A stretch of 64,000 nt of DNA from SAR92 bacterium BACL16 MAG-120619-bin48 (GTDB taxonomy: Bacteria; Pseudomonadota; Gammaproteobacteria; Pseudomonadales; Porticoccaceae): the NCBI GenBank assembly GCA_001438605.1, contig LIDE01000015.1, forward strand, positions 26,001-90,000. The letters are read 5' to 3'. Shown one piece after another: positions 27,822 to 42,701 of this stretch; positions within the stretch are counted from its first letter, which is position 1, and the number at the start of each line of letters is the position of its first letter. The notes beneath the pieces are model-generated. The model made no database searches, had not been told where the DNA came from, and saw nothing but the letters and a program-made list of their open reading frames with translations. A program made the position numbers and the translations under genes.

Positions 27822-27877
27822 TCTGGCTAAAGGCTTTCGATCTGGCTAAAGGCTTTTTTCAGGCTAAAGGCTTTCCG
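27822..27877. repeat. 3 x about 19 bp tandem micro-repeat spanning a stop codon
   Basis: tctggctaaaggctttcga / tctggctaaaggctttttt / caggctaaaggctttccg. Confidence 0.85.
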
Positions 27878-28577
27878 TCACTGCAAAGCGCCAGTCATTG
27901 ATCACCTGGCGTTTGATATCTTCGAGGGGGCTGTACTCGCCCCAAATAATATCCTCAACACAGACGAGATGAGTCCCTTGGTTTGAACTTATGGGGCCCG
28001 CCCAGCAGGGTAGATCGGTCTCAGTAGCAATAAGTGTTAGCAACCCATCGGTAAATCCCCGTCCATACTGCGCTTCCAGCGCGGTGGATAGAATGCCGGT
28101 GTATTGCGTGCGCATATCTCCTTCAGGCGTGCCGCTGCCCACTAGTGCCCGCTGCGCCGCAGCAAACACGTCGCCGCCGTGCTTGGCAGTGGTGAAATCA
28201 ATGAGTGTGACCCAGAGCTTGGAAGGCAGGCGGTACTGGGCTTTGTTGCGCGCATAGAAATCGCGTAATTCTGCGTCGCTCGGTTCTGCTTGGGTGGTGA
28301 CATTTTTGGTGAGTCCGGCCAGCTTACTAACCATAGCCTCGGTGTCGAGTGGTGTATCGATATCAGCGCCAATACCGTCTGGTTCGACGATCCGCGCGCC
28401 GAAAAGTTTATCGTCAATGCGCACTGCAAGTGCGTCATTGGGCAGCTCCAGTGCGCTCTCAATATCCCACTGCGGCGCACTGCTGTGCGGCAATAGCCAG
28501 TAGCCTAGTGCGACAAGAACGCCGACAACAAGAGCGAGTAAGGCTGCGTTTTTAGGGGTTCGATTAGGTTGCTTCAC
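27864..28577 (-). CDS. Membrane-anchored parvulin (PpiC/SurA)-like protein
   Basis: N-terminal TM segment; SDAELRDFYARNKAQYRLPSKLWVTLIDF resembles the region preceding parvulin domains; CWAGPISSNQGTHLVCVEDI... EYSPLEDIKRQVINDW. Confidence 0.55.
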   Translation of the reverse strand: MKQPNRTPKNAALLALVVGVLVALGYWLLPHSSAPQWDIESALELPNDALAVRIDDKLFGARIVEPDGIGADIDTPLDTEAMVSKLAGLTKNVTTQAEPSDAELRDFYARNKAQYRLPSKLWVTLIDFTTAKHGGDVFAAAQRALVGSGTPEGDMRTQYTGILSTALEAQYGRGFTDGLLTLIATETDLPCWAGPISSNQGTHLVCVEDIIWGEYSPLEDIKRQVINDWRFAVTESL

Positions 28578-28584
28578 AAATCCG

Positions 28585-30021
28585 TCACTGTTTAAAAATT
28601 TTCACCCAGTCACCGGCTTTGGGCTCGCCTCGGGGGTAATGGCCGTTGATTATACGCAGATCTTCGGTATCCGTTGGGCTGAGTTTAAGAGCCTTGGCAA
28701 GGGCATCGTAGGTGGTGGCATTGGTCGCTTTGACATAGTGGATGAGTTTGGGCCGCTGTCCGTCAATCTCGCGCTGGGAGATAGGTCGAAAGCTATCAAT
28801 AGAGGCGCTGAAGAGCTTGTCGCTGTCGTTGAACTGGGCCTGATCCACCACTTCACCAGTGAAGATAAAGGCGTTGAGTTTGTAATAGACCACAGCAATG
28901 CGCTGATCGGGCTTACTGTCGGCGCCGGGCAGAATGCCACTGTAGCCTTTGAGTCCTGCGGGCGAGATTTCGCGCCCCTGTTTCAGTTGCTTCACGCGCA
29001 AGAAATTGTACAGATACTCTTCTGGGCTCTGGGTGGTGCGCGCAATCGGTGTCATGGCCAATTTGGCGTGGTTATCGTCAGGCGCCCCGACTGTGGTGCG
29101 CGCGGTGGCGTTGTTGTTCTGCTTCCAGCCCTCGGGATAGTCGAAGCGCACACGCAGCGTCATATCCGAGTAGCGCTCGGGCTTTTTATCTTTGGCTAGA
29201 AAATTTTCTCCCCAGATTAATCCTTCGGTCAACTGGCGGTAGGTGCTCACGCCATTGTCGCGGCTGCTACTCCCTTTCAAGCGTTCGGCTGCGGTAACCA
29301 CATTGCGCAGACGGGAGTCGTTGCGCGGGTGGCTGGAAAAGATGCCATGGTAGGTTTGTTTGCTGGCGCCCTTGGCTTTGGCGCGGTCTTTTTGCAGTGT
29401 TTCATAGTCCTTCATAATTGAGAGCATGCTGAGCATTTCTTCTGGCGCATAACCCAATTTCGCCATGTACACCGCGCCCGCTTGGTCTGCTTCTAGCTCG
29501 TTGTTGCGACCATGGCTGCGCATCAGTGATGTGGAGTATTTCATCCCTGCCTCATAGACTTCGGCACTGCCCGATAGCACGCCCGCCACGGCTGATAATA
29601 CTTGTGCGCCAATGGCTTGGCCCTCTTGGCCGGTAACGTGCTTTTTCGTGATATGACCAACTTCGTGGGCCAGCACCGAGACCAGCTGTGCTTCATTGTT
29701 GATATAGTTGAGCAGACCACGATTGACGTAAACGTAGTTGCCGCGTGTGGCAAAGGCGTTTAAGTCGGGGGAGTCGAGCAGGGTAAAGGTAAACTTTTCG
29801 CCGGCCATTTCTGACTGGGCGACAATCTCTTCGCCGAGTTTTCTAATGTAGTTATCCAGCGCCGGATTGTCATAAATCGGGGTGCTGGCAATCACTTCCT
29901 TATAAATATCTTCACCCGTGGTTTTGGCCTCTGCGCTAATCACTGGCAGCAGGGCCAGGCAGAGCAGTGCGCTGAGTACTTTTTTCACTCCCGGAGTGCC
30001 TTGTGTTGTTGTCTTAACCAT
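28585..30021 (-). CDS. M48 family metalloprotease (BepA-like) with C-terminal LysM-like segment
   Basis: VLAHEVGHITKKH (HEXXH), NELEADQAGAVYMAKLGY, C-terminal LKLSPTDTEDLRIINGHYPRGEPKAGDWVKIF. Confidence 0.9.
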   Translation of the reverse strand: MVKTTTQGTPGVKKVLSALLCLALLPVISAEAKTTGEDIYKEVIASTPIYDNPALDNYIRKLGEEIVAQSEMAGEKFTFTLLDSPDLNAFATRGNYVYVNRGLLNYINNEAQLVSVLAHEVGHITKKHVTGQEGQAIGAQVLSAVAGVLSGSAEVYEAGMKYSTSLMRSHGRNNELEADQAGAVYMAKLGYAPEEMLSMLSIMKDYETLQKDRAKAKGASKQTYHGIFSSHPRNDSRLRNVVTAAERLKGSSSRDNGVSTYRQLTEGLIWGENFLAKDKKPERYSDMTLRVRFDYPEGWKQNNNATARTTVGAPDDNHAKLAMTPIARTTQSPEEYLYNFLRVKQLKQGREISPAGLKGYSGILPGADSKPDQRIAVVYYKLNAFIFTGEVVDQAQFNDSDKLFSASIDSFRPISQREIDGQRPKLIHYVKATNATTYDALAKALKLSPTDTEDLRIINGHYPRGEPKAGDWVKIFKQ

Positions 30022-30030
30022 GGGTTGCCT

Positions 30031-30699
30031 TTAGCCAGTGCTGTCTGGATTGCTGAAGAACTGTAATAACTGGTCGCCAAGGCTTTTGCAGGCGTCATCT
30101 TTGACTGGCGACAGCAGTGGAATGGGGGCGACGATACCGATCAGATAGGAGGTTCCCTGAGAGTCGACTTGCAGGCGCCCCTTTTCGCTGAGGTTGCGTA
30201 AGTCCCAGATAATGGCTTCGTAGGTTGAGCTTTTATCCCACTGCGCAAAACCGAAACAGCCGGCAATGCCCGGTGCCGCACCGCAACTCATGGAGCCGCT
30301 CTGGCCGTGACTCTCAGTTGAACCGTCGAGCCAGACAAGGTAGCGAATATGTTGGCGATCGATTTCAGCCTTGATAGTGGTGTCTTGCATCAGTCGCTTC
30401 AAGCGCGCCAGTCCTTTGGGAGCCGTGCGCGGTTCAAACCACGGGTAGATGGCGTCAACAAACTGCTGTTCAGGCATGATGCTGATATCGGCGCCCTGCA
30501 TTTTATCGGCAACACAGCCAATAAATTCGCGGTCAGTATCGTAGTGACCGGCGTCGCGGCGGCCGAGAATAACCACCGATTCGTTGCTGTTGAGCTCCAT
30601 AGCGCTGTTGTTGACGCGGTATTCATCAATCGTGGTGACGGCGCTGCAGGCGCTCAAAAAGCAGACAGCAACTAGTAGGAAGAATCTATTCATCGCCAC
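30031..30699 (-). CDS. Putative lipoprotein, unknown function
   Basis: Signal peptide with lipobox LSAC; packed between neighbours in operon. Confidence 0.75.
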   Translation of the reverse strand: MAMNRFFLLVAVCFLSACSAVTTIDEYRVNNSAMELNSNESVVILGRRDAGHYDTDREFIGCVADKMQGADISIMPEQQFVDAIYPWFEPRTAPKGLARLKRLMQDTTIKAEIDRQHIRYLVWLDGSTESHGQSGSMSCGAAPGIAGCFGFAQWDKSSTYEAIIWDLRNLSEKGRLQVDSQGTSYLIGIVAPIPLLSPVKDDACKSLGDQLLQFFSNPDSTG

Positions 30700-31303
30700 T
30701 CTCCTTGACGGGTTGTGTTCGCAGCCAGTTGTTCACACTGGGAATACGGTAAAAGTCGAGCACGAGTTTCGCGCCAGCATCGCGAAGTGCTATGACCGTA
30801 GCCTCGTCAATGGCGCTGGTTCTTGAGAGCATAAAGGAATCAGGGGTTTTGCCGTAGGCAGGCATAAACCAAGTGTCGATTTGCTCGCCCTCGGCTGTTT
30901 TGATGTCGAGACTGTACTTAATCCACACTTCGTAAACATTAAGGTAGGTGTCGGACGGGGTTGAGAGCTGCACCTCTTGGACTGAGGGGGTAATGACTAA
31001 TCCCTGCTTAAAGCTCGCCTGATCGGCTGCACTGACAATTTTCACGGTGCTGAACAACCCTTTAAAGGCGTTGGTTAGCAGCGCCACTTGCGCGCTGCCC
31101 ATGTCGATGGTGGTGTCTTTATTGGGTTTGGCGACAAATTGTCTGAATTCGTCGCTAAAAACAAGCGTTGCGCTGCTATTTTTCGGCTGCGAGATAACCG
31201 CTGGGAACCCTGCCGTAATCTGCACCTGTGCAGATGAGCTGCAGCCGACTAGGGCGATCAGCACGAAAACGCTGGCAATTAATTTTATGGTCTTTGTCTG
31301 CAT
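30686..31303 (-). CDS. Putative lipoprotein, unknown function
   Basis: Signal peptide with lipobox LVGC (start MQTKTIKL); overlaps next gene by 14 nt. Confidence 0.75.
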   Translation of the reverse strand: MQTKTIKLIASVFVLIALVGCSSSAQVQITAGFPAVISQPKNSSATLVFSDEFRQFVAKPNKDTTIDMGSAQVALLTNAFKGLFSTVKIVSAADQASFKQGLVITPSVQEVQLSTPSDTYLNVYEVWIKYSLDIKTAEGEQIDTWFMPAYGKTPDSFMLSRTSAIDEATVIALRDAGAKLVLDFYRIPSVNNWLRTQPVKESGDE

Positions 31304-31307
31304 CTTG

Positions 31308-32312
31308 TTATTTCCCTTCGTTAAGGCTGTTGAGGCCGATAAAGGTTCCCCCATTGTTGTAGCTTAGTTCACGCATTAAGGCGGCAAAACGAATGGCCGA
31401 CTCGCTGGGTGCTGACCCCTGCGCAAACTGCACCGGAAATCCAAGCGCATGGATGCGCACTAATCTGCCGGCACCGCGCTGAGCTTGATTGAGCCGATCA
31501 ACGGCTTTAACTACAGCGCGTATGGAGCGGCCCTGAAAATCATCGCCAAGGGTATAGATACTAATTTTACGGTCTGACTTGTAAAAGGTTTGAATCGCCG
31601 CGTTGATTCCTTCCACAGGGCTGGAGTTACTGAACGGCGCCCAACTGGCCAGCTTTTTAATAATATCTTTGCGCATCTCTGGGCTGTCGGGAATCCAGCG
31701 TCCGCTGTAGGCGCTAAACATATACTGCCCCATATCGTTGAGCACTTGTATGCCTTTGACGTCGGGGTAGATGTCGAGAATATTGAGCATCTCTTTTTGC
31801 ACCCGCTGCCACGCGCCCACTTGCATACTACCAGAGGTGTCGATAACAAAAATAATGTAGTCGCTGTCGACGGGGATGCCGCCGATCAAATTGTTCTGCT
31901 GTTTAAACTCTGGGCCGACGAGGCGCGCCATCTCTTCGGTGAGGACTTGCAGAACCAGTTGCAGCTGCTCTTTTTCTCGAGATTGCGACTGGGATAGTTG
32001 CATCGATTGTTTGTCGACACTGGCCAATTTAGCCTTGAGCCGCGCCACCCGCTCGGTCAACTCGGAGAGTTGCTCTTTGCGCGATTGCAGCTGTTCGTTG
32101 AGCACCACTGACTCGCCGCGCAGATCAAACAGCTCAGTTTGGTAGGTTTTGACCGCTGCACGGAGTCGTTTTTCGGCTTCCTCAAGGGCTGCTGGATCAC
32201 CAACTTTGGCGATTAATAACAGTAGAACAATGGCGCCAAAGCCACAGCTAATCACGTCCAGAAAAGACAGGCTGGCCTCTTGAAGTTCGCGGCGCTGGCG
32301 TCTCATGGCCAA
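31308..32312 (-). CDS. TM-anchored coiled-coil VWA-domain protein (ExbD/TolR-like anchor)
   Basis: SFLDVISCGFGAIVLLLLIAK anchor; coiled-coil; VWA MIDAS FVIDTSGSM; STYLGDDFQG-like downstream segment (IYTLGDDFQG). Confidence 0.85.
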   Translation of the reverse strand: MAMRRQRRELQEASLSFLDVISCGFGAIVLLLLIAKVGDPAALEEAEKRLRAAVKTYQTELFDLRGESVVLNEQLQSRKEQLSELTERVARLKAKLASVDKQSMQLSQSQSREKEQLQLVLQVLTEEMARLVGPEFKQQNNLIGGIPVDSDYIIFVIDTSGSMQVGAWQRVQKEMLNILDIYPDVKGIQVLNDMGQYMFSAYSGRWIPDSPEMRKDIIKKLASWAPFSNSSPVEGINAAIQTFYKSDRKISIYTLGDDFQGRSIRAVVKAVDRLNQAQRGAGRLVRIHALGFPVQFAQGSAPSESAIRFAALMRELSYNNGGTFIGLNSLNEGK

Positions 32313-33361
32313 TCTCGCGACGGGGCGATAAAGGCGCCCTGGGTATCAATGGCGAGCTGCCAGAACAGGGCGGCTGCTTCTGGATCGCCCTCCATCGGAA
32401 ATAAAATGGTGTTGATGGGCACGCCGCGGGGTAGTTTTTCGACGGCATCGCCAAAAAAGTTGCGTCGCTGTTTGCCGCTGACCATATAGCTGCTCGGTGC
32501 CTTGGCACCTTGGGTCGGCAGCCCGTCGGTGAGCAGAAAAATATTGTCGGGCTGGTCACTGAAGCTGTTGATGACGGCCAGGGCATTGCTCAGGCTGGTG
32601 CCGTTGCCGGGCAGATAGTCGCGCATAGCCTCTGCGGTGCGCTCTAGGTCAAGGGAGTCTGCAGCATCTAACCATTCACCCTCTGTGCCGGCCAGAGCGG
32701 GTTGTGCGCTGGTATTGAACAGGTAGACTTGAAAGCGGCTGCTGGCGGGCAGTTGAGCCAAAAGCCAATCGGTGGTGCGCAGGGTCCACTGCCATTTGTC
32801 CGACTGACGTTTTTGCGCGTCATCCATATTTCTGCGCCGCAGGGCGTTGACCACCGAGTCGGCGAGCATGCTGGCGGAGCCGTCCACTAAAATTAAAATC
32901 CGTTCACCGCCGAGTTTGAGTCCAGTCAGGTACTGGCGATTGCCGTCACCAAGAAAACCGCGCACCTTGTCGCCGAACTCCACATCTTCCATTTGCGCGG
33001 TTTCTTTTTCCAGTTGCTCCACTTGGCGGCGCAGTTTGGCGAGTTCTTCTTTGGGGTCTGACTGAATACTGTTTTCGCTCTCTTGCAGGTCGGTGATAAC
33101 TCGATCGGAGGCCCCTTGAGCGATCGCCAGCTCGCGCTGCAGAGCGTCGAGGCTGTTGAGCAACGCCACCTTCTGTTGTTCGGCCTGACTGATGTCCTGT
33201 TGCAGCAGTTCGACTTCGTCGGCGAGGCGGGGATCGGTGGTTTCGATCTCGGTCGCATTGTGACGAAGAATTAAAAACAACAGGGTTACGGCGCCAAAAC
33301 CACAGGCCATGATGTCCAAGAACGACAGGCTGAAGGCGATATTGCGGCGCTTTTTAATCAC
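32303..33361 (-). CDS. TM-anchored coiled-coil VWA-domain protein (ExbD/TolR-like anchor)
   Basis: SLSFLDIMACGFGAVTLLFLIL anchor; VWA MIDAS ILVDGSASM and FLLTDGLPTQG; overlaps next gene by 10 nt. Confidence 0.87.
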   Translation of the reverse strand: MIKKRRNIAFSLSFLDIMACGFGAVTLLFLILRHNATEIETTDPRLADEVELLQQDISQAEQQKVALLNSLDALQRELAIAQGASDRVITDLQESENSIQSDPKEELAKLRRQVEQLEKETAQMEDVEFGDKVRGFLGDGNRQYLTGLKLGGERILILVDGSASMLADSVVNALRRRNMDDAQKRQSDKWQWTLRTTDWLLAQLPASSRFQVYLFNTSAQPALAGTEGEWLDAADSLDLERTAEAMRDYLPGNGTSLSNALAVINSFSDQPDNIFLLTDGLPTQGAKAPSSYMVSGKQRRNFFGDAVEKLPRGVPINTILFPMEGDPEAAALFWQLAIDTQGAFIAPSRDWP

Positions 33362-33386
33362 AGAAATCCCCCGTTAACACTGCGTG

Positions 33387-34184
33387 CTATTTGGCCTTGA
33401 GAAAGCGTATTAGGCGATTTTCGCAGTAGTCGTGGGTGTCGAGGACGAGGCGCTCTTGGACAAGCTGCAACTGGTGCATAAAAAACATCACCACCATGCT
33501 GATTAACAGTGCGATAAACGTCGAGTTAAAGGCTACGCCGAGACTGCTGGTGACACCGGCAATGTTACCCTGCATGGCTTCGTGGGCTTGGCCAAGCGCG
33601 GCACCAATACCGCGCACGGTGCCAATAAAGCCAATCGACGGGATAGCCCAAGTAATGTAGCGAATCATCGACAGCTCTGAGTCGAGACGGTCGTTTTCGT
33701 TGCTGCACACAGTGTTTACTGCATCGGTTGCCGACTGCACGCTTTGCGTTACCTGAAAGCGGGTCAGGGCGGTTTGCAGTGCGCGCGGCAAGAGCAGCGA
33801 CCGCTCTTGGTCGGTGAGGCTTTGCATGGGGTGTCCGAGCTGAGGGGCCTCCTCTGGCAGCACTTTTTGGGAATCGGGGGGACTGTTGAGCAGCGCGGTG
33901 GCAAACATTTTCTGCTCGCGGAGGGCGCTGCGGGTTTTGTAGCCCATGATGGCGAGCGCCCAAAACATTAAAATAAAGCAGGACTCTTGCTCTAGGTCTT
34001 TGATAACAATAAAGAACGAGCGCGGCACCACGTAGTCTTCGCCAGCTGCCGCCATTTCTGCATGATGGCGAATGGTGGTTTCAGCATTTGGCCGCACCAC
34101 TGTGACAAACACTGCATGCACCACAATCAAGGCCAATAGCAGCGCGATCAATTGGAAGAACAGCTCGTTGGTTTGACTTTTCAT
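33387..34184 (-). CDS. MotA/TolQ/ExbB family proton channel protein
   Basis: AIPSIGFIGTVRGIGAALGQA ... VTSSLGVAFNSTFIALLISMVVMFFMHQL. Confidence 0.9.
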   Translation of the reverse strand: MKSQTNELFFQLIALLLALIVVHAVFVTVVRPNAETTIRHHAEMAAAGEDYVVPRSFFIVIKDLEQESCFILMFWALAIMGYKTRSALREQKMFATALLNSPPDSQKVLPEEAPQLGHPMQSLTDQERSLLLPRALQTALTRFQVTQSVQSATDAVNTVCSNENDRLDSELSMIRYITWAIPSIGFIGTVRGIGAALGQAHEAMQGNIAGVTSSLGVAFNSTFIALLISMVVMFFMHQLQLVQERLVLDTHDYCENRLIRFLKAK

Positions 34185-34198
34185 ATCAGTACCTGTTG

Positions 34199-34435
34199 CT
34201 AAATGTCGGATGGCAGCGAAATGGGGAAATCTTCAGAGATCTCTTCGCTGGGTTTAAAGTCCATGGGGGGATTATTCGCCGTCGTGGGGCTGTTTTCGAC
34301 GGTGGGGGCTTCGGGTGTCGCCACAGGCTCATTTGACGGCTCATTTGACGGCTCTGCTGACCACAGCGGCAGACTAACGGCGAGGAGCGCGACGGCAATT
34401 AGGCGTGAAACTCTTTTGCACATAGGGTTACTCAT
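34199..34435 (-). CDS. Small secreted P/E/N-rich protein, unknown
   Basis: Signal peptide (LIAVALLAVSLPLWSAEPS); start overlaps upstream stop by 4 nt; in-operon position. Confidence 0.6.
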   Translation of the reverse strand: MSNPMCKRVSRLIAVALLAVSLPLWSAEPSNEPSNEPVATPEAPTVENSPTTANNPPMDFKPSEEISEDFPISLPSDI

Positions 34436-36462
34436 GGTTTATCCACATAGCGGGCCACTCTAAATCCAACATCCATTCGCCCGTCACTGCCTGATTCGCG
34501 ATAACTTAAACGCAGCTCCGTGCGCGATGCTAGCGCCCAACTGGCGCCGCGAACCACATGTTGCACGCCTTGCTCGGGGCCGCGGGGGTCTGTGTCGACA
34601 GTACTCGTGTTTGGGCGAACATCAAAGTAATCATTGGTCCACTCGGCAACATTGCCGCCCATATCATAGAGCCCTTTGGGGTTGGCTGGAAAGCGTCCAA
34701 TCACGGCAGACACTGGGAAGCCATCGCTGTAGTTGGAGAGGGTAAAGCTGATCAATGATGCCGCGCTTTGATCGGCGTAGTTTTCCACGACCTGCTCGGG
34801 CGGGTAGATATCACCCTGCCACGGAAAGCGACGGGGATTGGCATTGTTGTCGAGTTTGGCTGCCCACGCCCACTCAGCCTCTGTGGGCAAGCGGTAGCCC
34901 TCTGCGTCCCAGTTAACCCCAACCACCTCGCCCTCTTCAACGCGATAGAACAGGGGCAATTTTTCCTGTCGGCTGAGCCAGTTGCAGAATAATGCAGCAT
35001 CTTGCCAGCTGACTGCCGCCACCGGCTGATCATTCATGTCGAGTGTGTTGCCGCGCAGTGCAGAGGAGCTGTGGTCTGCCTTCCAGCGTCGGTACTGGGC
35101 ATTGGTGGTCTCATGGGTGGCGAGGTAAAAGGGCCGTTGCAATGCAACGAGGCGTTCGGCTTCGTTGGCGCGTCGGCCGGGCTCACGGCGTGGGGCACCG
35201 AGCATAAATTGGTCGTTGGGGCGGAATAGTTTTAAGGTGCCGCCGACCGGGCTGGTGAGTGTGGCGGGACGTGTTGCCCAGTAGTCCTGTTGCAGGGTTA
35301 GCAGCTCGATGGTAAGAGCCTGCTGGTGCCCCGGTCTCGGTGTGACACTGATCTGCTGGCTTTTGTAACCCGCTTTCGCAACGCTGATCTGATGGGGTTT
35401 GGCGGGTAGCGTCAATGTCTGCTGTCCACTGCTATCGGGTTTTCCGCTGGCAACGCCGTTGACACTGATGTTCGCATCGGCAGGTTTGACGGTGATTCGC
35501 AGTGAGCCGCTATTTTCTGTGAGCGCTATGTTGACAGCTGTTTGCTGCTCAGGCTCAAGGCTTACTGCGCGACTGGTTTTTAAATAGCCCTCAAGAAAGA
35601 GTTCGATCTTGTGTGACTGAAAGGCTTTTAGTTCGACAGTGGCGGGGGTGGTACCGCGGAACTGGTTGTCGATGGTGATACTGGCGCCGGACGGGCTGCT
35701 GGTCAGTAGCAGTGTGCCGTCGGCGACTGCAAGAACAATGGGCGGATGCACGCCGCGAGTGCCGGCGTTAACGGTTATCGATTGTTCTACGGGCTTATAG
35801 CCGGGCGCGGTAATTTTTAACTGACTGCCGGTTTCCAATACCTCGGTGGTAAGGGGTGTTTTGCCAATTAAGCGATTATCGATGTACAGGTCAGCACCGG
35901 TCGGAACTGTATCGAGGGTCAGTTCGCCCCATGCGGGCTGCAATGCGATATCGATTGACTGAGTGTTGCCGAGGCCCTCAATGTCAATATCCTGCTGCTG
36001 GCTAAAGTAGCGATACTTGCTAAATTCGAAGAGGTGTCGCCCGCGGCTGATCTCACGCAGTGTTCCCGGTACGGTGCCGGCTGTCTCGCCGTCGATAGTG
36101 ACACTAATGTCCGTGAGGTCGCTTTTTACGGCTAGGTTGCCCGGCAGCGGTTCCAGCTTGAGGGCGATTTCTTGAGTGCCTTGGTCGCTGACCTGAATGG
36201 TTGCTGTGAGGGGCTGATAGCCGTTAGCCTCGGCGCGGACTTGGTGCTCACCTTGAAGAAAGAGGAAGTTTCCGCCGATATTAAAGGTTAGGCCGCCGGC
36301 GCTGATGTGAGCATCGGCTGGGTCCGTGCGGAAAATGACCGACTGGGCTGAGGTGAGAAACAGCATGATAGCAGCCGCTACTAGCGCGACTGCGGCGGTT
36401 GCCAACAGACCGGTTGATGTGCGCTGACTCGCGTTGGCGGGAGGGTTATGATCTGTGCTCAT
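34432..36462 (-). CDS. PEGA-repeat protein with C-terminal SUMF1/formylglycine-generating-enzyme-like domain
   Basis: About five PEGA-like repeats (GADLYIDNRLIGKTPLTTEVL..., GASITIDNQFRGTTPATVEL...), then ATHETTNAQYRRW, EGYRLPTEAEWAWAA, YDMGGNVAEWTNDY, VRGASW, DVGFRVAR. Confidence 0.9.
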   Translation of the reverse strand: MSTDHNPPANASQRTSTGLLATAAVALVAAAIMLFLTSAQSVIFRTDPADAHISAGGLTFNIGGNFLFLQGEHQVRAEANGYQPLTATIQVSDQGTQEIALKLEPLPGNLAVKSDLTDISVTIDGETAGTVPGTLREISRGRHLFEFSKYRYFSQQQDIDIEGLGNTQSIDIALQPAWGELTLDTVPTGADLYIDNRLIGKTPLTTEVLETGSQLKITAPGYKPVEQSITVNAGTRGVHPPIVLAVADGTLLLTSSPSGASITIDNQFRGTTPATVELKAFQSHKIELFLEGYLKTSRAVSLEPEQQTAVNIALTENSGSLRITVKPADANISVNGVASGKPDSSGQQTLTLPAKPHQISVAKAGYKSQQISVTPRPGHQQALTIELLTLQQDYWATRPATLTSPVGGTLKLFRPNDQFMLGAPRREPGRRANEAERLVALQRPFYLATHETTNAQYRRWKADHSSSALRGNTLDMNDQPVAAVSWQDAALFCNWLSRQEKLPLFYRVEEGEVVGVNWDAEGYRLPTEAEWAWAAKLDNNANPRRFPWQGDIYPPEQVVENYADQSAASLISFTLSNYSDGFPVSAVIGRFPANPKGLYDMGGNVAEWTNDYFDVRPNTSTVDTDPRGPEQGVQHVVRGASWALASRTELRLSYRESGSDGRMDVGFRVARYVDKP

Positions 36463-36523
36463 CTATCGGGTGCCCTGGCATTGTTGCCGGTTGCTGTTGT
36501 GGGTGCTCATGTGGTTTGCATCA

Positions 36524-37945
36524 TTAAATTAAATCGCTGCAGATGACCTCAATGGGCGTTTTTAGGCCACTGTCGGTCAATGTAAATTCAATGCGCACAT
36601 CGCGGTAGCCGGCCCTTGTGCCTGCGATGATGTAACGGCCCGGTTTTAACGCGACCGATGTGCGGTCGAATTGTCCCAGCTTGGCCACACGAAAAAGTGT
36701 TACTTCGGTGAATTGGTCTGAGACAAGCTGCACTTCAATGGGGGTTTGCGATGCTGCCAAGTGGTGTTTTAGCCGAGCGATCTGATCCCTCAGAACGGGC
36801 CCCGGGTTGGGAATGCCTTCAGCATCTTGCAGCAAGCTCTGCCCCCGTTGATAGTTTTTGGGGGCGGACAGCGCGAGGGGATCGTCGAGGGTGCGGCGAA
36901 TTTTCTGATCGAGATCAGCGCGCACGGCGACAGGAAGTTGCCGCACCTTAATATCGCTGAGGGTTGGGTCGGTGGCCAGCAGCTCGCGGTAGACAGCCTC
37001 AGCCTCGGACCACTTTTCAGCGTCTTCCAGTGCTTTGGCTTTGGTGATGCCATCGTTTACCCAGCGCTGTGCCCGACGATTTTCCACTTGCGACAGTGCT
37101 TGAGTCACGGTCGTGTTGCCCGGGTAGACCTTTTCGGCCTCGGCAAACGCACGATTGGCGGTGTCCAACTGGTCTTCGCTCAACGCACTAAAGCCTCGAC
37201 TCATCCAATTATTAAAGCGCTCTTGGGTAATTTTTTTCTCAATAGCCACCAGCGCTGCGGCGGCTTCTTGATGATCAGGATCGAGCGCGACAGCCTCGGC
37301 CAAGGGTGTTCTGGCACCGGTGAAGTCGCCGGCGGCGCTAAGTGCTTGGCTGCGCTGCATGAGGTCAATAAGCGCGGGCAGCAGGGTGGCTCGTTGCGCC
37401 AGTTTTTGCACCTCGTTATTCTCGGGCGCCATGGCCTGTGCGAGGGCGGAAGTGCGGCGGGCGGTGTCGAGATCGCGCTGGGCAATGGCTGTGCGGGCCT
37501 CGGTGATGGACTGTTGCAGCAGATTTACACCCCTTTCTTCAAGTGCCTTTAAGGTGTCGAGCGAGCGCTGGTAGCGCGCTACCGACTCTGCGTAGTTGCC
37601 AATGGCGTATTGCTCGTCGCCGCCGGTAATATCGGCGACGGCTTGGCTGAAGTCGATATCGGCCCAGAGATTGACTTGCTGTTGCTGCAGGCGCTCGCGG
37701 CGCAGAATAATCTCGGCGAGGATAGTTTGTGCATCTTGCCGATATTTACTTTTTTCCGCGGCTAGGGAGGGGCTAACAACGGCAGGCGAGTTAATTTGTG
37801 CTGTGTTTTCGGCCTGTTTTGAATCTGCAATCCAAGGCTCTGTTACCCAATTGGGCAGCACAAAAATCACCACCACAGCGAGAAATAGCAGTGCGCTAAC
37901 GATGACCTTTTGCTTGCCGGCCTGTTTATGTGGTGTTTCGTTCAT
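36524..37945 (-). CDS. Single-TM TPR-like protein with PEGA-like C-terminus
   Basis: TM VIVSALLFLAVVVIFVLPNWV; helical repeats (YAIGNYAESVARYQRSLDTL, GDFTGARTPLAEAVALDPDHQEA); C-terminal SVALKPGRYIIAGTRAGYRDVRIEFTL. Confidence 0.7.
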   Translation of the reverse strand: MNETPHKQAGKQKVIVSALLFLAVVVIFVLPNWVTEPWIADSKQAENTAQINSPAVVSPSLAAEKSKYRQDAQTILAEIILRRERLQQQQVNLWADIDFSQAVADITGGDEQYAIGNYAESVARYQRSLDTLKALEERGVNLLQQSITEARTAIAQRDLDTARRTSALAQAMAPENNEVQKLAQRATLLPALIDLMQRSQALSAAGDFTGARTPLAEAVALDPDHQEAAAALVAIEKKITQERFNNWMSRGFSALSEDQLDTANRAFAEAEKVYPGNTTVTQALSQVENRRAQRWVNDGITKAKALEDAEKWSEAEAVYRELLATDPTLSDIKVRQLPVAVRADLDQKIRRTLDDPLALSAPKNYQRGQSLLQDAEGIPNPGPVLRDQIARLKHHLAASQTPIEVQLVSDQFTEVTLFRVAKLGQFDRTSVALKPGRYIIAGTRAGYRDVRIEFTLTDSGLKTPIEVICSDLI

Positions 37946-37948
37946 AGG

Positions 37949-39169
37949 CTAGGGCGTGGCGCGTTCCTGCTGGTAAATTTTGGCTAACAGTTCTTGCCAC
38001 TGGGCGTATTGGGCTTGCACTGTCCCGGTGAGTGTCACCGTGCGATCTTCCAACTCAATGACTTGAGGCGCAATTTCAGCCTCGAGAGAGGAACCCATTT
38101 CTGCCACGGCTTCATTGTACTCCGCGGATTTTTGTTTGCTGTCGAGTCCGGCTTTGACAACGAATCCGCCGACCGCTGCTGTGGCAATGCTGGCGTCGTT
38201 GGCCATGGCCGTGTCGGCCTGTGTGCGGCCATAAATGCCCGCTAAAATGGCGCCGATTCCGCTGATAATCTGACGGTTGCCTTTAGCATTGAGCTGTCGT
38301 GATTTAACCACTGAGTCGTAGGAGGCTCGACGGAAGTCTTGATAGGCAAGATGCATTTGTTGCGAAAACCGATCGTAATAGTCTTGCATGGTGTCGATGT
38401 ACAGGTAATCCCGCTCGCGGATTTTGCGCACCCGCAAGAGAATGCTGTCGTTCTCTGCTGGCAGGCGTGCGATATGCAAAATGCCTTTGCGATCTTCTTC
38501 GACATAGTTGTCGAAAGCCTCTGGCGAGAAGCGTTTGGCAAAGCGCAGTTCCGAGAGGGTGCGTAGTTCGATAGCGCGCTCATCACTTATTTTTTCACGG
38601 TGCTTGAGTAAATCATTGGCGATGCGGATAAACAGATTTTGAAATGGGTCGCCAAGATTTTTTAAACGGCGGTCGTAGGCATATTTACCGGTGGTCTGCT
38701 TGTAGCGTTTGTTGAACCATTTTTTACCGCTGCTATCGACCGCCGTAATGTCGAGATCGAGGGTTTCGCCATCTGACTGGTGAATGGTACCGGTGATATA
38801 CAGATCCATAATAACGTCGCTGCTGGGCGTGACTCGAATGGCGCCCCAAGCTCCGCTTTTCTCTAACACTTTACCCAGTTGGTTGGAAAAATAGATAGCC
38901 TCAGCGTAGCGAACTTCCGGAAACACGGTGTCGTCGGAGTCGGTGAGTGAAAGACCGTCATTGAGCGTGGGGATGCCAATATCGAGCAGTGTTTCCGCTG
39001 GATAGGGGCGCGACGGGGTGTTGAGTGTGAGGCTAGTCGACGACGTCGATTTATCGATGGCGGCGGTGGCCTGACCACTGACGGCGAGGCAAAGCATAAG
39101 AGCCAAAAAGAGCTGCAGTGCGCGGGGCATCACAGTGAAACCTTGGGGTGTAGACTTGTCGAATGGCAT
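37949..39169 (-). CDS. Secreted/periplasmic protein of unknown function
   Basis: Long ORF with signal peptide (LQLFLALMLCLAVSGQATAA), in-operon; no family recognised. Confidence 0.7.
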   Translation of the reverse strand: MPFDKSTPQGFTVMPRALQLFLALMLCLAVSGQATAAIDKSTSSTSLTLNTPSRPYPAETLLDIGIPTLNDGLSLTDSDDTVFPEVRYAEAIYFSNQLGKVLEKSGAWGAIRVTPSSDVIMDLYITGTIHQSDGETLDLDITAVDSSGKKWFNKRYKQTTGKYAYDRRLKNLGDPFQNLFIRIANDLLKHREKISDERAIELRTLSELRFAKRFSPEAFDNYVEEDRKGILHIARLPAENDSILLRVRKIRERDYLYIDTMQDYYDRFSQQMHLAYQDFRRASYDSVVKSRQLNAKGNRQIISGIGAILAGIYGRTQADTAMANDASIATAAVGGFVVKAGLDSKQKSAEYNEAVAEMGSSLEAEIAPQVIELEDRTVTLTGTVQAQYAQWQELLAKIYQQERATP

Positions 39170-39185
39170 CGCAGTGGGCTCCTGG

Positions 39186-39980
39186 CTATCGCTGGTTCTT
39201 TATACGGCGGTATTCGTCCCAGAGCTTTTCTCGCAGCACCGGGTCCTGTTCTTTTTCGGCGGCATCGCGTATCTGCCGCTCAACAATATTGTCGCCTTTA
39301 CCATCACCTATATCGTCGGGAATTGGAATAATCGCCGCATCTGCGGGTTGCCCCGCGCTCGCGGTGCTGCTGCCTTGCGGGCCTTCAGCGGACATTCCAG
39401 CATCCCCGGCGCCGGACGAGGCACCCTCCGCGGCGCGCTGTTCAATGGCGGCGCTGCTGTCGGCATCGCCTAGATCGCCCTCTTCAAAGAGCGGCTCATT
39501 GCTGTCTCTCTGGTCGGCGGCATTGCCACTTGGGCTGAGTATATCGATAGTGGCGGGGTCTTGTTTGTTGCGCTCTGCCGTGACGGTGTCGTCAAAGTCT
39601 TCGAGGGATCTATCTAGGGTCTCATCGAGACCGTCAACCGACTCGTCGCTGCCAGGGGCTGCAGGTTGCCCCGCAGAGGGTTCTGGAAAATTACTGCCGC
39701 CCGCATCACCGCTGGTGCTCGGGGACTGTTTGTCGCCACTATTACCTGTACTGGTACTGGGTGCGCCGCCCTGGGGAGACGACGAATCGCTGCCGCTGTC
39801 ACCGCTCGGTGCAGGCGTGCCGCCAGAGGGCCCCGAGGGCATTGATGAGCCTGTGGGTGTGCCGAATGGCGAGGGCATATTACAGCCGCTTAGCGTCAGT
39901 GCTATTGCCAGCGCAAGGGTGGCAGCCATTGGGCTGGTGTGCAGTGCGCGGGTATCTTTTGAGGCAGTGAATTTTGTCAT
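39186..39980 (-). CDS. Low-complexity (S/G/P/D-rich) lipoprotein with charged C-terminal motif
   Basis: Lipobox LSGC; disordered linker; C-terminal GDNIVERQIRDAAEKEQDPVLREKLWDEYRRIKNQ. Confidence 0.7.
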   Translation of the reverse strand: MTKFTASKDTRALHTSPMAATLALAIALTLSGCNMPSPFGTPTGSSMPSGPSGGTPAPSGDSGSDSSSPQGGAPSTSTGNSGDKQSPSTSGDAGGSNFPEPSAGQPAAPGSDESVDGLDETLDRSLEDFDDTVTAERNKQDPATIDILSPSGNAADQRDSNEPLFEEGDLGDADSSAAIEQRAAEGASSGAGDAGMSAEGPQGSSTASAGQPADAAIIPIPDDIGDGKGDNIVERQIRDAAEKEQDPVLREKLWDEYRRIKNQR

Positions 39981-39987
39981 GGGAAAA

Positions 39988-41202
39988 TTACTTTCTTGTC
40001 AAATTGAGGTCAGCTTGCTGCGACGCATAGGGCAACACTATCTCGGCCTTTGTCGGTTTGCCCTCAACCCATTGCGGGCGAAAGCGCATATTGCGAATAT
40101 CTTTGTATATTGAGTTAAGTGCTCTTTCGCTAAGACTCTCTGGGGGGTCGATAATGGCTGGATTTCTTGTGCTCCCCGACGATAACACAGTCACGGTAAC
40201 CTGCAGATCTTGCGGCAGCGTGGTTTGGCCGCGATTGGCGGCGGTATAGGCAATCAGCGTTGGTTGGCCAAACAGTGCTTGGCGCTGGGTGTTGCCGTTC
40301 TCGTCATCAGGAAGTAACTCGTAGGCGAGGTTATAGGTTTTTTTAGCGGATGCTCGCTGGGCAAAGGCCGTGTACCAGTCGCCAACGTCGATCAGTGCGA
40401 GCGCTTTTTCGGTCATACTGGCGTCTGGTTGTTGCTCTAGGGATTTCACTCTCTCTTCGAGTGCCGCTTTGCCGCGACGAAAGTGCATGTGCGAGGAACT
40501 CTCTTGGCTGCGCACCTGCTGGCCGTTGTTGATACTAAAGCCGGACTCGACCGGTTCGCCATATTCCTCAAGATGGCGCGCGATCATGTAGTGCATGTGG
40601 CTTATTTTGCGGTACTGTTCAGCGGATTCTGAGGGATTTATCGCTTTATTGTTGCTGAGAATACGGTACATGCGCTCACCGATATCTTCGGCGACAATCA
40701 AACTTTTGTAGGCATCGCTGCGGGACAGTTGGTCATAGCTGTCGGTGTACCAGTCGAGCAGTTGCTCGAGTACCGGCAACATGGCGGGGCTCGATTCGCC
40801 GTGAGTTTCAACATTGATATTGTAGAGCGTTTCCAGCGCTGCCTGTGATTCCGTATAGTTGCCAAGCTGGGTTTCTGTCTCGGCGATCGAGAACAGGTAG
40901 GGCGTCTGCGCGAGACTGTTCAGCCCTAAATTAACCCGTTCAATTTGCATGCCACGCTGAAACGCTCGTTTCGCGGCCGCGAAGTCACCGCTGGTCACGT
41001 AGGCATTGCCGAGACTCAGGTATAAGTCGGCGAGTTCTCTTGAATAGGCGCTGCTGTCGCTTTCAATGGTATCGATAGCGCGTATGTAGTTGGTGATGGC
41101 ATCTGACGCGGTAGGTTCTTGTGCGGAAATGAACGGATTTAGTAGCAGACCAACGATTAGGGTTGTGCTGCTGAGGTACCATTTTTTATAGCCGCTGTTC
41201 AT
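39988..41202 (-). CDS. Secreted TPR protein with C-terminal TonB_C-like domain
   Basis: Signal/TM segment; TPR-like LADLYLSLGNAYVTSGDFAAAKRAFQRGMQIE; C-terminal LQVTVTVLSSGSTRNPAII...ALNSIYKDIRNMRFRPQWVEGKPTKAEIVLPY. Confidence 0.75.
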   Translation of the reverse strand: MNSGYKKWYLSSTTLIVGLLLNPFISAQEPTASDAITNYIRAIDTIESDSSAYSRELADLYLSLGNAYVTSGDFAAAKRAFQRGMQIERVNLGLNSLAQTPYLFSIAETETQLGNYTESQAALETLYNINVETHGESSPAMLPVLEQLLDWYTDSYDQLSRSDAYKSLIVAEDIGERMYRILSNNKAINPSESAEQYRKISHMHYMIARHLEEYGEPVESGFSINNGQQVRSQESSSHMHFRRGKAALEERVKSLEQQPDASMTEKALALIDVGDWYTAFAQRASAKKTYNLAYELLPDDENGNTQRQALFGQPTLIAYTAANRGQTTLPQDLQVTVTVLSSGSTRNPAIIDPPESLSERALNSIYKDIRNMRFRPQWVEGKPTKAEIVLPYASQQADLNLTRK

Positions 41203-41232: not shown

Positions 41233-41507
41233 TCTCTGTGATGGTTGTTACGCGTGTTCGTGTCGTTAGAGTTGACACAGGCCCGCCAGTTCCATTGGTT
41301 CTAACGACGCCCGTAGAGCGATTTCGTTTACTGGAGGCATAACTCTTTTAGGGTGGTCGGTTGATTTTTTATTCTTATTGCTGAGGTTAATCTCTTATCA
41401 TTGCCTCGCTTAAAACGCTTTCTTCCTACAGTTTAACCCTTGGTGTGACAGAATCCATTGTCTGCACTAAAAAAATTATTGAGTCACCACTAAAGATAGG
41501 TAAAAAG

Positions 41508-42701
41508 ATGCATAAACCTCTTGCTGGATTGCGAGTCATTGAACTGGGTCAACTGTTAGCGGGGCCCTTTGCAGGCTGCATGCTGGGCTATTTTGGCGCT
41601 GAAGTGATCAAAATTGAGCCGCCGGGCGGCGACCCGATTCGCTATTGGCGAGAAGTGAAAGACGGTACGTCGCTGTGGTGGCGAAGTCTCGGGCGCAACA
41701 AAAAATGTATTTCATTGGATCTAAAAACCCCAGAAGGTCGCGATCTCGTCAAGCAGCTATTGAAGACGGCAGATATTGTTGTTGAGAACTTTCGTCCGGG
41801 CATTTTGGAGGGCTGGGGTTTAGATCCTGAGTCTCTGCGCGCGGAAAACCCCGATCTAATCTATGCTCGTATTTCCGGGTACGGTCAGACCGGCCCCTAT
41901 TCAGAAAAGCCGGGTTTTGCGTCTGTCTGTGAGGCGATAAGTGGGTTTCGCTATGTAAACGGCTATGTCGATGAAGTACCGGTTCGGCCCAATCTCAGTT
42001 TAGGCGATACGATTTCCGGCTTGCACGCGGTGTTGGGGGTGTTGCTCGCACTGCGCTCAAAAGATCGTGGCGAGGGTGGGCAGGTTGTCGATGTGGCGCT
42101 CTACGAGTCGATGTTTAATTTACTTGAGTCGATTGTTCCTGAGTTCGACGGTGCCGACGTGATTCGCCAGCCATCGGGAACCACCATTACCGGCATAGTG
42201 CCAACCAACACCTACCGCTGCAGTGACAATAAATATTTAGTGATTGGCGGCAATGGCGACTCAATATTTACCCGTCTGATGACTGCCGTAGGGCGCGCCG
42301 ATATTGGGCAAAGTCCGGACTACGACAGCAATGCAAAACGGGTTGTGCATGAAGTGGAAATTGATCAAATTTTGAATGCTTGGTGTGCCTCTCAAACGCT
42401 TGCTGACGCGATGGCGATTCTCGAGGAGTATCGTGTGCCCTGTGGGCCGGTCTACAACGCAGAAGATATGCTGGCCGATCCACATTTCAATCAGCGCGGC
42501 TTATTTGAGCAGGTGGAGATTAATGGTCAACCGCTGAAAATTCCCGCCATCATGCCAAAGTTGGCCGGTACGCCGGGAGCGACAGACTGGCCAGGCCCAG
42601 AGCTGGGAAGTCACAGTGCAGAAATTTTGCAGGGCTTAGGGTTGAGCGAAGAACAGATTGCGCATTTGAAAGCAACCGGTGTTGTCGCCGATATGGCCTA
42701 G
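41508..42701 (+). CDS. CaiB/BaiF family CoA transferase
   Basis: LAGLRVIELGQLLAGPFAGCMLGYFGAEVIKIEPPGGDP, IVVENFRPG, SGYGQTGPY; start MHKPLAG preferred over 41445. Confidence 0.94.
   Translation: MHKPLAGLRVIELGQLLAGPFAGCMLGYFGAEVIKIEPPGGDPIRYWREVKDGTSLWWRSLGRNKKCISLDLKTPEGRDLVKQLLKTADIVVENFRPGILEGWGLDPESLRAENPDLIYARISGYGQTGPYSEKPGFASVCEAISGFRYVNGYVDEVPVRPNLSLGDTISGLHAVLGVLLALRSKDRGEGGQVVDVALYESMFNLLESIVPEFDGADVIRQPSGTTITGIVPTNTYRCSDNKYLVIGGNGDSIFTRLMTAVGRADIGQSPDYDSNAKRVVHEVEIDQILNAWCASQTLADAMAILEEYRVPCGPVYNAEDMLADPHFNQRGLFEQVEINGQPLKIPAIMPKLAGTPGATDWPGPELGSHSAEILQGLGLSEEQIAHLKATGVVADMA

Follow-up and report, generated by a model that had tools for sequence, protein, structure and literature searches.

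A conserved gammaproteobacterial operon predicted to encode a TolQ-type motor with paired VWA axle proteins and an envelope assembly

Introduction

5:2 motors drive flagella, gliding, nutrient uptake, division, and phage defense. The window analyzed here, a 64,000-nucleotide stretch of DNA from a SAR92 bacterium, carries a block of minus-strand genes in which a TolQ/MotA/ExbB homolog and two VWA proteins are encoded amid genes for lipoproteins, PEGA, SUMF1, and TPR proteins, a metalloprotease, and a parvulin-like protein. What machine do these genes encode, and has it been described before? An earlier note on this DNA had proposed a trans-envelope machine powered by an ion gradient and named no known system of such composition. 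For the motor class, this last claim does not hold. As set out in the text and legend of PMC12204202 (Mol Biol Evol, June 2025, msaf138), TM-anchored vWA genes tightly co-occur with tolQ, without tolR or exbD; they form mostly heterologous pairs and encode an axle-type helix with a proton-binding Asp, with Idiomarina as the reference species. AF3 models in that paper place paired TPH-vWA proteins in a TolQ-like pentamer with an Asp-Thr arrangement, their function being given as unknown. Because it was modeled there, the VWA axle is already a published prediction. For the full composition, the claim stands: neither the complete accessory set nor the function of the machine is described in the papers found by our literature search, and two surveys searched for these terms, PMC12505986 and PMC12905483, do not mention vWA motors.

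Results

An ORF check of the window confirmed 13 consecutive, tightly spaced ORFs on the minus strand between positions 27864 and 41202, each present at the coordinates given below. The intergenic gaps range from overlaps of 14, 10, and 4 nt up to 61 nt; one more overlap, of 47 nt, depends on the start chosen for g10 and arises with its long start. The block is bounded by intergenic and opposite-strand DNA, as the earlier note had stated, with the plus-strand trpBA genes convergent on one flank and a divergent plus-strand CoA-transferase III gene (41445-42701) on the other.

Domain assignments were made with Pfam and NCBIfam profile searches, and all coordinates given for g01 to g13 are on the minus strand. 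g01 (39988..41202) encodes a periplasmic protein with a signal peptide, TPR repeats (TPR_12, 1.2e-11), and a weak TonB_C-like C-terminus; the latter match is marginal, with an E value of 0.09 in the window protein and 5e-4 in one homolog, and BLAST detects g01 in some but not all of the relatives. g02 (39186..39980), a member of the conserved core, encodes a low-complexity lipoprotein with an LSGC lipobox, and 56 of its 75 homologs carry a lipobox-like motif. g03 (37949..39169) encodes a conserved secreted protein, assigned by AlphaFold2 and Foldseek a TolB-N-like alpha/beta domain and a long helical hairpin. The g03 model has a pLDDT of 85, and its Foldseek matches to the TolB N-domain, which span some 150 residues, are weak by E value (3e-3 to 4e-2) and have a probability close to 1; the resemblance is suggestive only. 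A lipobox-like motif occurs in 49/81 g03 homologs and is lacking in the window protein, which would make g03 a lipoprotein in most relatives. g04 (36524..37945), supported by core synteny, has an N-terminal TM anchor, TPR repeats (TPR_14, 5.8e-11), and a beta C-terminus; the PEGA domain that had been proposed for it found no Pfam match.

g05 (34432..36462) encodes an N-terminal TM anchor, five PEGA repeats (confirmed; PEGA, 4e-46), and a SUMF1/FGE-fold domain (FGE-sulfatase, 1.7e-38). The SUMF1 domain matched the NCBIfam GldK model at 1.1e-26 and, among PDB structures, PorK at 4e-16 and human FGE at 1e-14. At 94 bits, the GldK match is far under the 350-bit cut-off of the model, and the relation is one at the domain level. 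PorK/GldK is a ring part of the T9SS motor. A role of g05 as a formylglycine-generating enzyme was considered and rejected: the active-site cysteines are absent after the RGGSW motif, and no cysteine lies within 45 residues from RG[GA]S[WF] in 60/60 scorable homologs, with 29 homologs lacking the motif left out of this count. Since the FGE cysteines are absent in every scorable homolog, the SUMF1 domain of g05 is probably structural.

The next gene, g06 (34199..34435), is an ORF for a small secreted protein of 78 amino acids, and relatives have a small ORF in the syntenic position. Beyond the motor genes g07 to g09, which are treated below, g10 (30686..31354) and g11 (30031..30699) are syntenic lipoprotein genes, with lipobox-like motifs in 83/98 and 78/90 homologs, respectively. 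g12 (28585..30021) encodes a periplasmic, BepA-like M48 metalloprotease (Peptidase_M48, 1.1e-31) that matches the BepA model at 5.7e-31 across the protease part and retains HExxH in 81/81 homologs. The last gene, g13 (27864..28577), encodes a parvulin-like protein (Rotamase_2, 5.3e-6). Apart from PEGA in g04, the domain modules originally read from the letters were recovered, TonB_C only weakly.

The core of the proposed motor consists of g07 and the two VWA genes. g07 (33387..34184) encodes the TolQ/MotA/ExbB homolog (MotA_ExbB, 1e-14), the candidate wheel, in which T189 (codon 33618-33620) and T222 (codon 33519-33521) are conserved in 90/90 sequences and align with the lumen threonines of TolQ/ExbB. 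g08 (VWA1, 32303..33361) and g09 (VWA2, 31308..32312) each encode an axle-type helix with an Asp (Asp16, codon 33314-33316, and Asp19, codon 32256-32258, respectively), a coiled coil, and a VWA domain with a MIDAS. The topology predicted for both proteins is a short, basic N-terminus, a single hydrophobic TM helix bearing the invariant Asp, and a periplasmic domain. Pfam scores for the VWA domains of the window proteins (7e-5 and 3e-3) fall below the Pfam cut-off; one VWA homolog exceeds it, and the MIDAS D-x-S-x-S pattern is retained in 98/99 and 98/102 homologs.

The VWA1 helix follows the pattern FLD-x-M-x-C-G-(F/L)-G in 96/99 homologs and the VWA2 helix FLD-x-x-x-C-G-F-G in 93/102; the sequences that deviate are either ORFs that were trimmed or read in the wrong frame, or variants in which the Asp is kept. 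The VWA1 signature (I/V)M(A/S)CG(F/L)GA...H differs from that of VWA2, (V/I)(I/V)(S/C)CGFGA...K/R. The two helices are clearly related, homologous yet always distinguishable, as a heterodimer would require. Almost every complete locus has both VWA1 and VWA2, and the median distance between the two genes is -3 nt.

Neither the window block nor the conserved operons inspected contain exbD or tolR, and the other five MotA_ExbB genes of the genome adjoin partners of their own: tolQR, exbBD, a TonB-type pair, and MotA-MotB-MotB. Because the helix Asp is invariant, the TolQ threonines are conserved in 90/90 sequences, and the block has no exbD/tolR, there is good support for the prediction that the motor axle is a VWA pair in place of TolR/ExbD, in agreement with the earlier note; synteny, the partnered state of the other wheels, the published AF3 models, and the sister operons described below, which carry this kind of axle helix, also favor it. 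Alternatively, g07 could pair with an orphan ExbD, and the VWA proteins, instead of forming an axle, could bind the side of the motor and transmit force as TolA/TonB do. An orphan TonB-type ExbD is indeed present in the genome, on contig C28 (L155:1495-1902), with no adjacent ExbB, and the text of PMC12204202 mentions another vWA family proposed to bind the side of a motor. However, the orphan lies near mutM and resembles the TonB-type ExbD of contig C3, and the invariant Asp of the VWA helices sits in an FLDxxxCGFG frame, like that of axle helices; together with the absence of exbD/tolR from the conserved operons, this makes the alternative improbable, and pairing of g07 with a separate ExbD unlikely.

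Nearly every sequence test agrees with the VWA pair as the axle, apart from a comparison of helix profiles that gave no clear signal. In hhalign, the axle helix scored no better against ExbD/MotB helices than control helices did; the comparison is weak, because the alignment had a misplaced ExbD row and the positive control, the known homologs ExbD and MotB, reached only 7%. PDB profile searches with the TolQ and VWA alignments returned only coiled-coil chance matches or none. On contig C31 of the same genome (L033:7006-10241), a MotA gene is followed by two tandem MotB-like genes, another possible stator with two axle proteins.

The gene-neighborhood survey showed the block to be syntenic in relatives and excluded non-synteny. 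Gene order is kept in about 95 loci, comprising about 80 from named genomes, mostly gammaproteobacterial, and 15 from relatives, and this conservation is beyond chance. Most relatives have 14 genes in the block, versus 13 in the window. Of 36 sampled relatives, 19 gave a match to VWA1, in one case a weak match, and by the same search the system is absent from the majority of the smallest genomes in the genus. Within the genus, the motor proteins are 70-86% identical and gene order is the same throughout the loci read; for two further families within the order, identity is about 44-56%. The named-genome scan yielded at least 575 VWA2 relatives, of which the best 80 include members of Porticoccaceae/SAR92, Halieaceae, Microbulbifer, Pseudoalteromonas, Colwellia, Thalassotalea, and Bowmanella; among these 80, g02 to g12 occur in order in nearly all complete loci. 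Among the named genomes, Alteromonadales other than Idiomarina carry the operon. g13 was seen in 28 sequences, mostly from SAR92/Porticoccaceae loci, and was detected only near the lineage of the window.

In a broader sample, the VWA2 profile matched 35 of 369 genomes of the class, some weakly, and 16 of 399 genomes of the phylum, mostly from one family outside the class that has a shorter core of g02, g03, g04, g05, tolQ, VWA1, and VWA2. Genes flanking the block are conserved within lineages only and differ between lineages; examined as a functional clue, these external neighbors were lineage-specific housekeeping genes only. Because its flanks change between lineages, the block is a self-contained unit, and the operon is real, old, and conserved. 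The operon also occurs in a few MAG records labeled Lysobacterales or Xanthomonadales, among them contigs L059 and L065; with 72-75% identity to their SAR92 counterparts, these records are probably misbinned.

The stability of synteny over many species, rather than in patchy islands, also speaks against the notion that the operon is a Zorya-type phage defense system. The wheel does weakly match ZorA (E value of 1e-3), and on a cyanobacterial plasmid CRISPR genes surround a TolQ-like operon of another kind. ZorB, ZorC, ZorD, and ZorE are nonetheless absent, and a PADLOC scan gave no other credible match, so that we regard a Zorya-type system as highly improbable.

The 14th gene of most relatives, which the earlier note did not include and which we call gX, encodes a protein of 420-455 amino acids (about 435) and lies between tolQ and VWA1 in nearly all of them, usually overlapping its neighbors or sitting a few bases away. 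It is missing from the window, where only the tolQ-VWA1 junction (33362..33386) marks its site, and has no match elsewhere in the genome. Within the genus, 35 of 50 genomes have gX, and its loss in the species of the window is species specific. The same position also lacks gX in loci L117, L120, L123, and L125 and in the distant core operons; given these repeated absences, gX is dispensable. An AlphaFold2 model from 53 sequences (pLDDT 92) matched Hsp70/DnaK at an E value of 1e-16. By eye, the phosphate loops look eroded, with LND for LGT and DLQLHQ for DLGGGT, which makes ATP hydrolysis doubtful; gX is best described as a putative Hsp70-fold protein with eroded nucleotide motifs. A suspected FHA pattern at the gX C-terminus was discarded, as it has no Pfam support.

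The presence of an Hsp70-like subunit together with a BepA-like protease and a parvulin in one operon could be read differently, namely, as a nonrotating signaling or quality control device in which VWA/MIDAS sensors on an ion-gated channel report envelope damage to the cytoplasm via the Hsp70-fold subunit, with the protease and the parvulin as effectors. Sister operons with PP2C, FHA, and kinase genes, described below, point the same way. On the other hand, the Hsp70-fold gene is repeatedly missing while the remainder stays, the motor residues are all retained, and the many structural lipoproteins would better fit a force-bearing assembly. On balance, a signaling device is unlikely.

Discussion

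Altogether, we consider it probable that the operon encodes an ion-gradient-driven trans-envelope machine with a TolQ wheel, a VWA1-VWA2 axle, and an envelope assembly. The resemblance of its SUMF1 domain to PorK/GldK also favors this reading. In such a machine, the inner-membrane wheel would consist of five TolQ-like subunits around an axle of two central helices, supplied by one copy each of VWA1 and VWA2. Each axle Asp, facing the two conserved wheel threonines, would bind a proton or Na+. Ion flow would then turn the axle against the wheel, a movement that the coiled coils would carry to the two periplasmic VWA heads. These may contact a periplasmic/outer-membrane assembly in which the lipoproteins g02, g03, g10, and g11 join the PEGA-SUMF1 and TPR proteins anchored in the inner membrane. 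This assembly would transmit force to the outer membrane or the surface, while the M48 protease and the parvulin protein may service the assembly. In most species, the Hsp70-fold cytoplasmic protein might regulate or assemble the wheel. Gene content, synteny, and the invariant motor residues are observed, and the folds of g03 and gX come from structure prediction; we infer the 5:2 stoichiometry, the mixed VWA1/VWA2 axle, its rotation, what the machine acts on, and its biological output.

How does this operon compare to known systems? In the TPH-vWA class (PMC12204202), the neighbors of tolQ are likewise two heterologous genes for TM-anchored vWA proteins, the axle-like helix has a conserved Asp, and tolR/exbD are absent. 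The text and legend of that paper cover the tolQ and vWA genes only, and relative to that text the operon adds genes for PEGA-SUMF1, TPR, g03, Hsp70-fold, lipoprotein, and M48 components. What seems undescribed is the complete gene inventory, with its PorK/GldK-like and Hsp70-fold products, and the loss of gX in the species of the window. With GldKLMN/PorKLMN of the T9SS, the operon shares a PMF-type wheel and an axle helix, a SUMF1 fold closest to PorK/GldK, and outer-membrane lipoproteins; it differs in having VWA axle heads, a SUMF1 domain on an anchored PEGA stalk, and a wheel that is not recognized as GldL, and none of its 13 genes encodes GldM, GldN, or SprA. The AglRQS/Glt gliding motor of Myxococcus similarly has a single MotA-like wheel served by two distinct axle proteins, along with a trans-envelope assembly that includes TonB_C-like parts; however, the Agl axle proteins carry TolR-like peptidoglycan-binding domains, whereas those of the operon carry VWA domains. 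Tol-Pal shares the TolQ-type wheel, lipoproteins, and, weakly, the TolB-N-like fold of g03, but the operon lacks TolR, TolA, and Pal, and the genome has a separate tolQR. We tentatively suggest, as a reading that is still rather doubtful, that the operon specifies a distinct trans-envelope machine, in which an obligate VWA1-VWA2 heterodimer axle drives a PorK/GldK-like SUMF1 assembly and outer-membrane lipoproteins, with an Hsp70-fold pseudo-ATPase as its partner in the cytoplasm, as a gammaproteobacterial counterpart of T9SS/gliding motors.

A widespread marine subclass with VWA heads and a defined, conserved set of accessory genes would supply the machine that the predicted vWA motors have so far lacked, together with a parts list for genetics. 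Whether the axle of AglQ/AglS is a heterodimer or a homodimer is unresolved (PMC9389320), and axle proteins that are paired and always distinct make the question of a heterodimeric axle directly testable.

Several related loci were observed in passing. A gammaproteobacterial locus (L149:6122-10750) and a Rhizobium plasmid (L029:6533-16199) each encode a TolQ homolog and an axle-type protein beside FHA and PP2C genes. The axle helices of both are homologous to those of VWA1/VWA2 (hhalign, 98%); the head is a VWA domain in L149 and another domain in L029. At L150:5563-10174, an axle-type protein is encoded beside PP2C, trypsin-FHA, and kinase genes. These operons possibly represent a phosphorylation-linked sister class of motors. 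TolQ relatives on plasmids were rejected as instances of the same system, as their operons differ. On the cyanobacterial plasmids L027 (9776-12355) and L028 (7539-10139), a TolQ-like gene and two small uncharacterized genes lie next to type III CRISPR and other defense-type genes.
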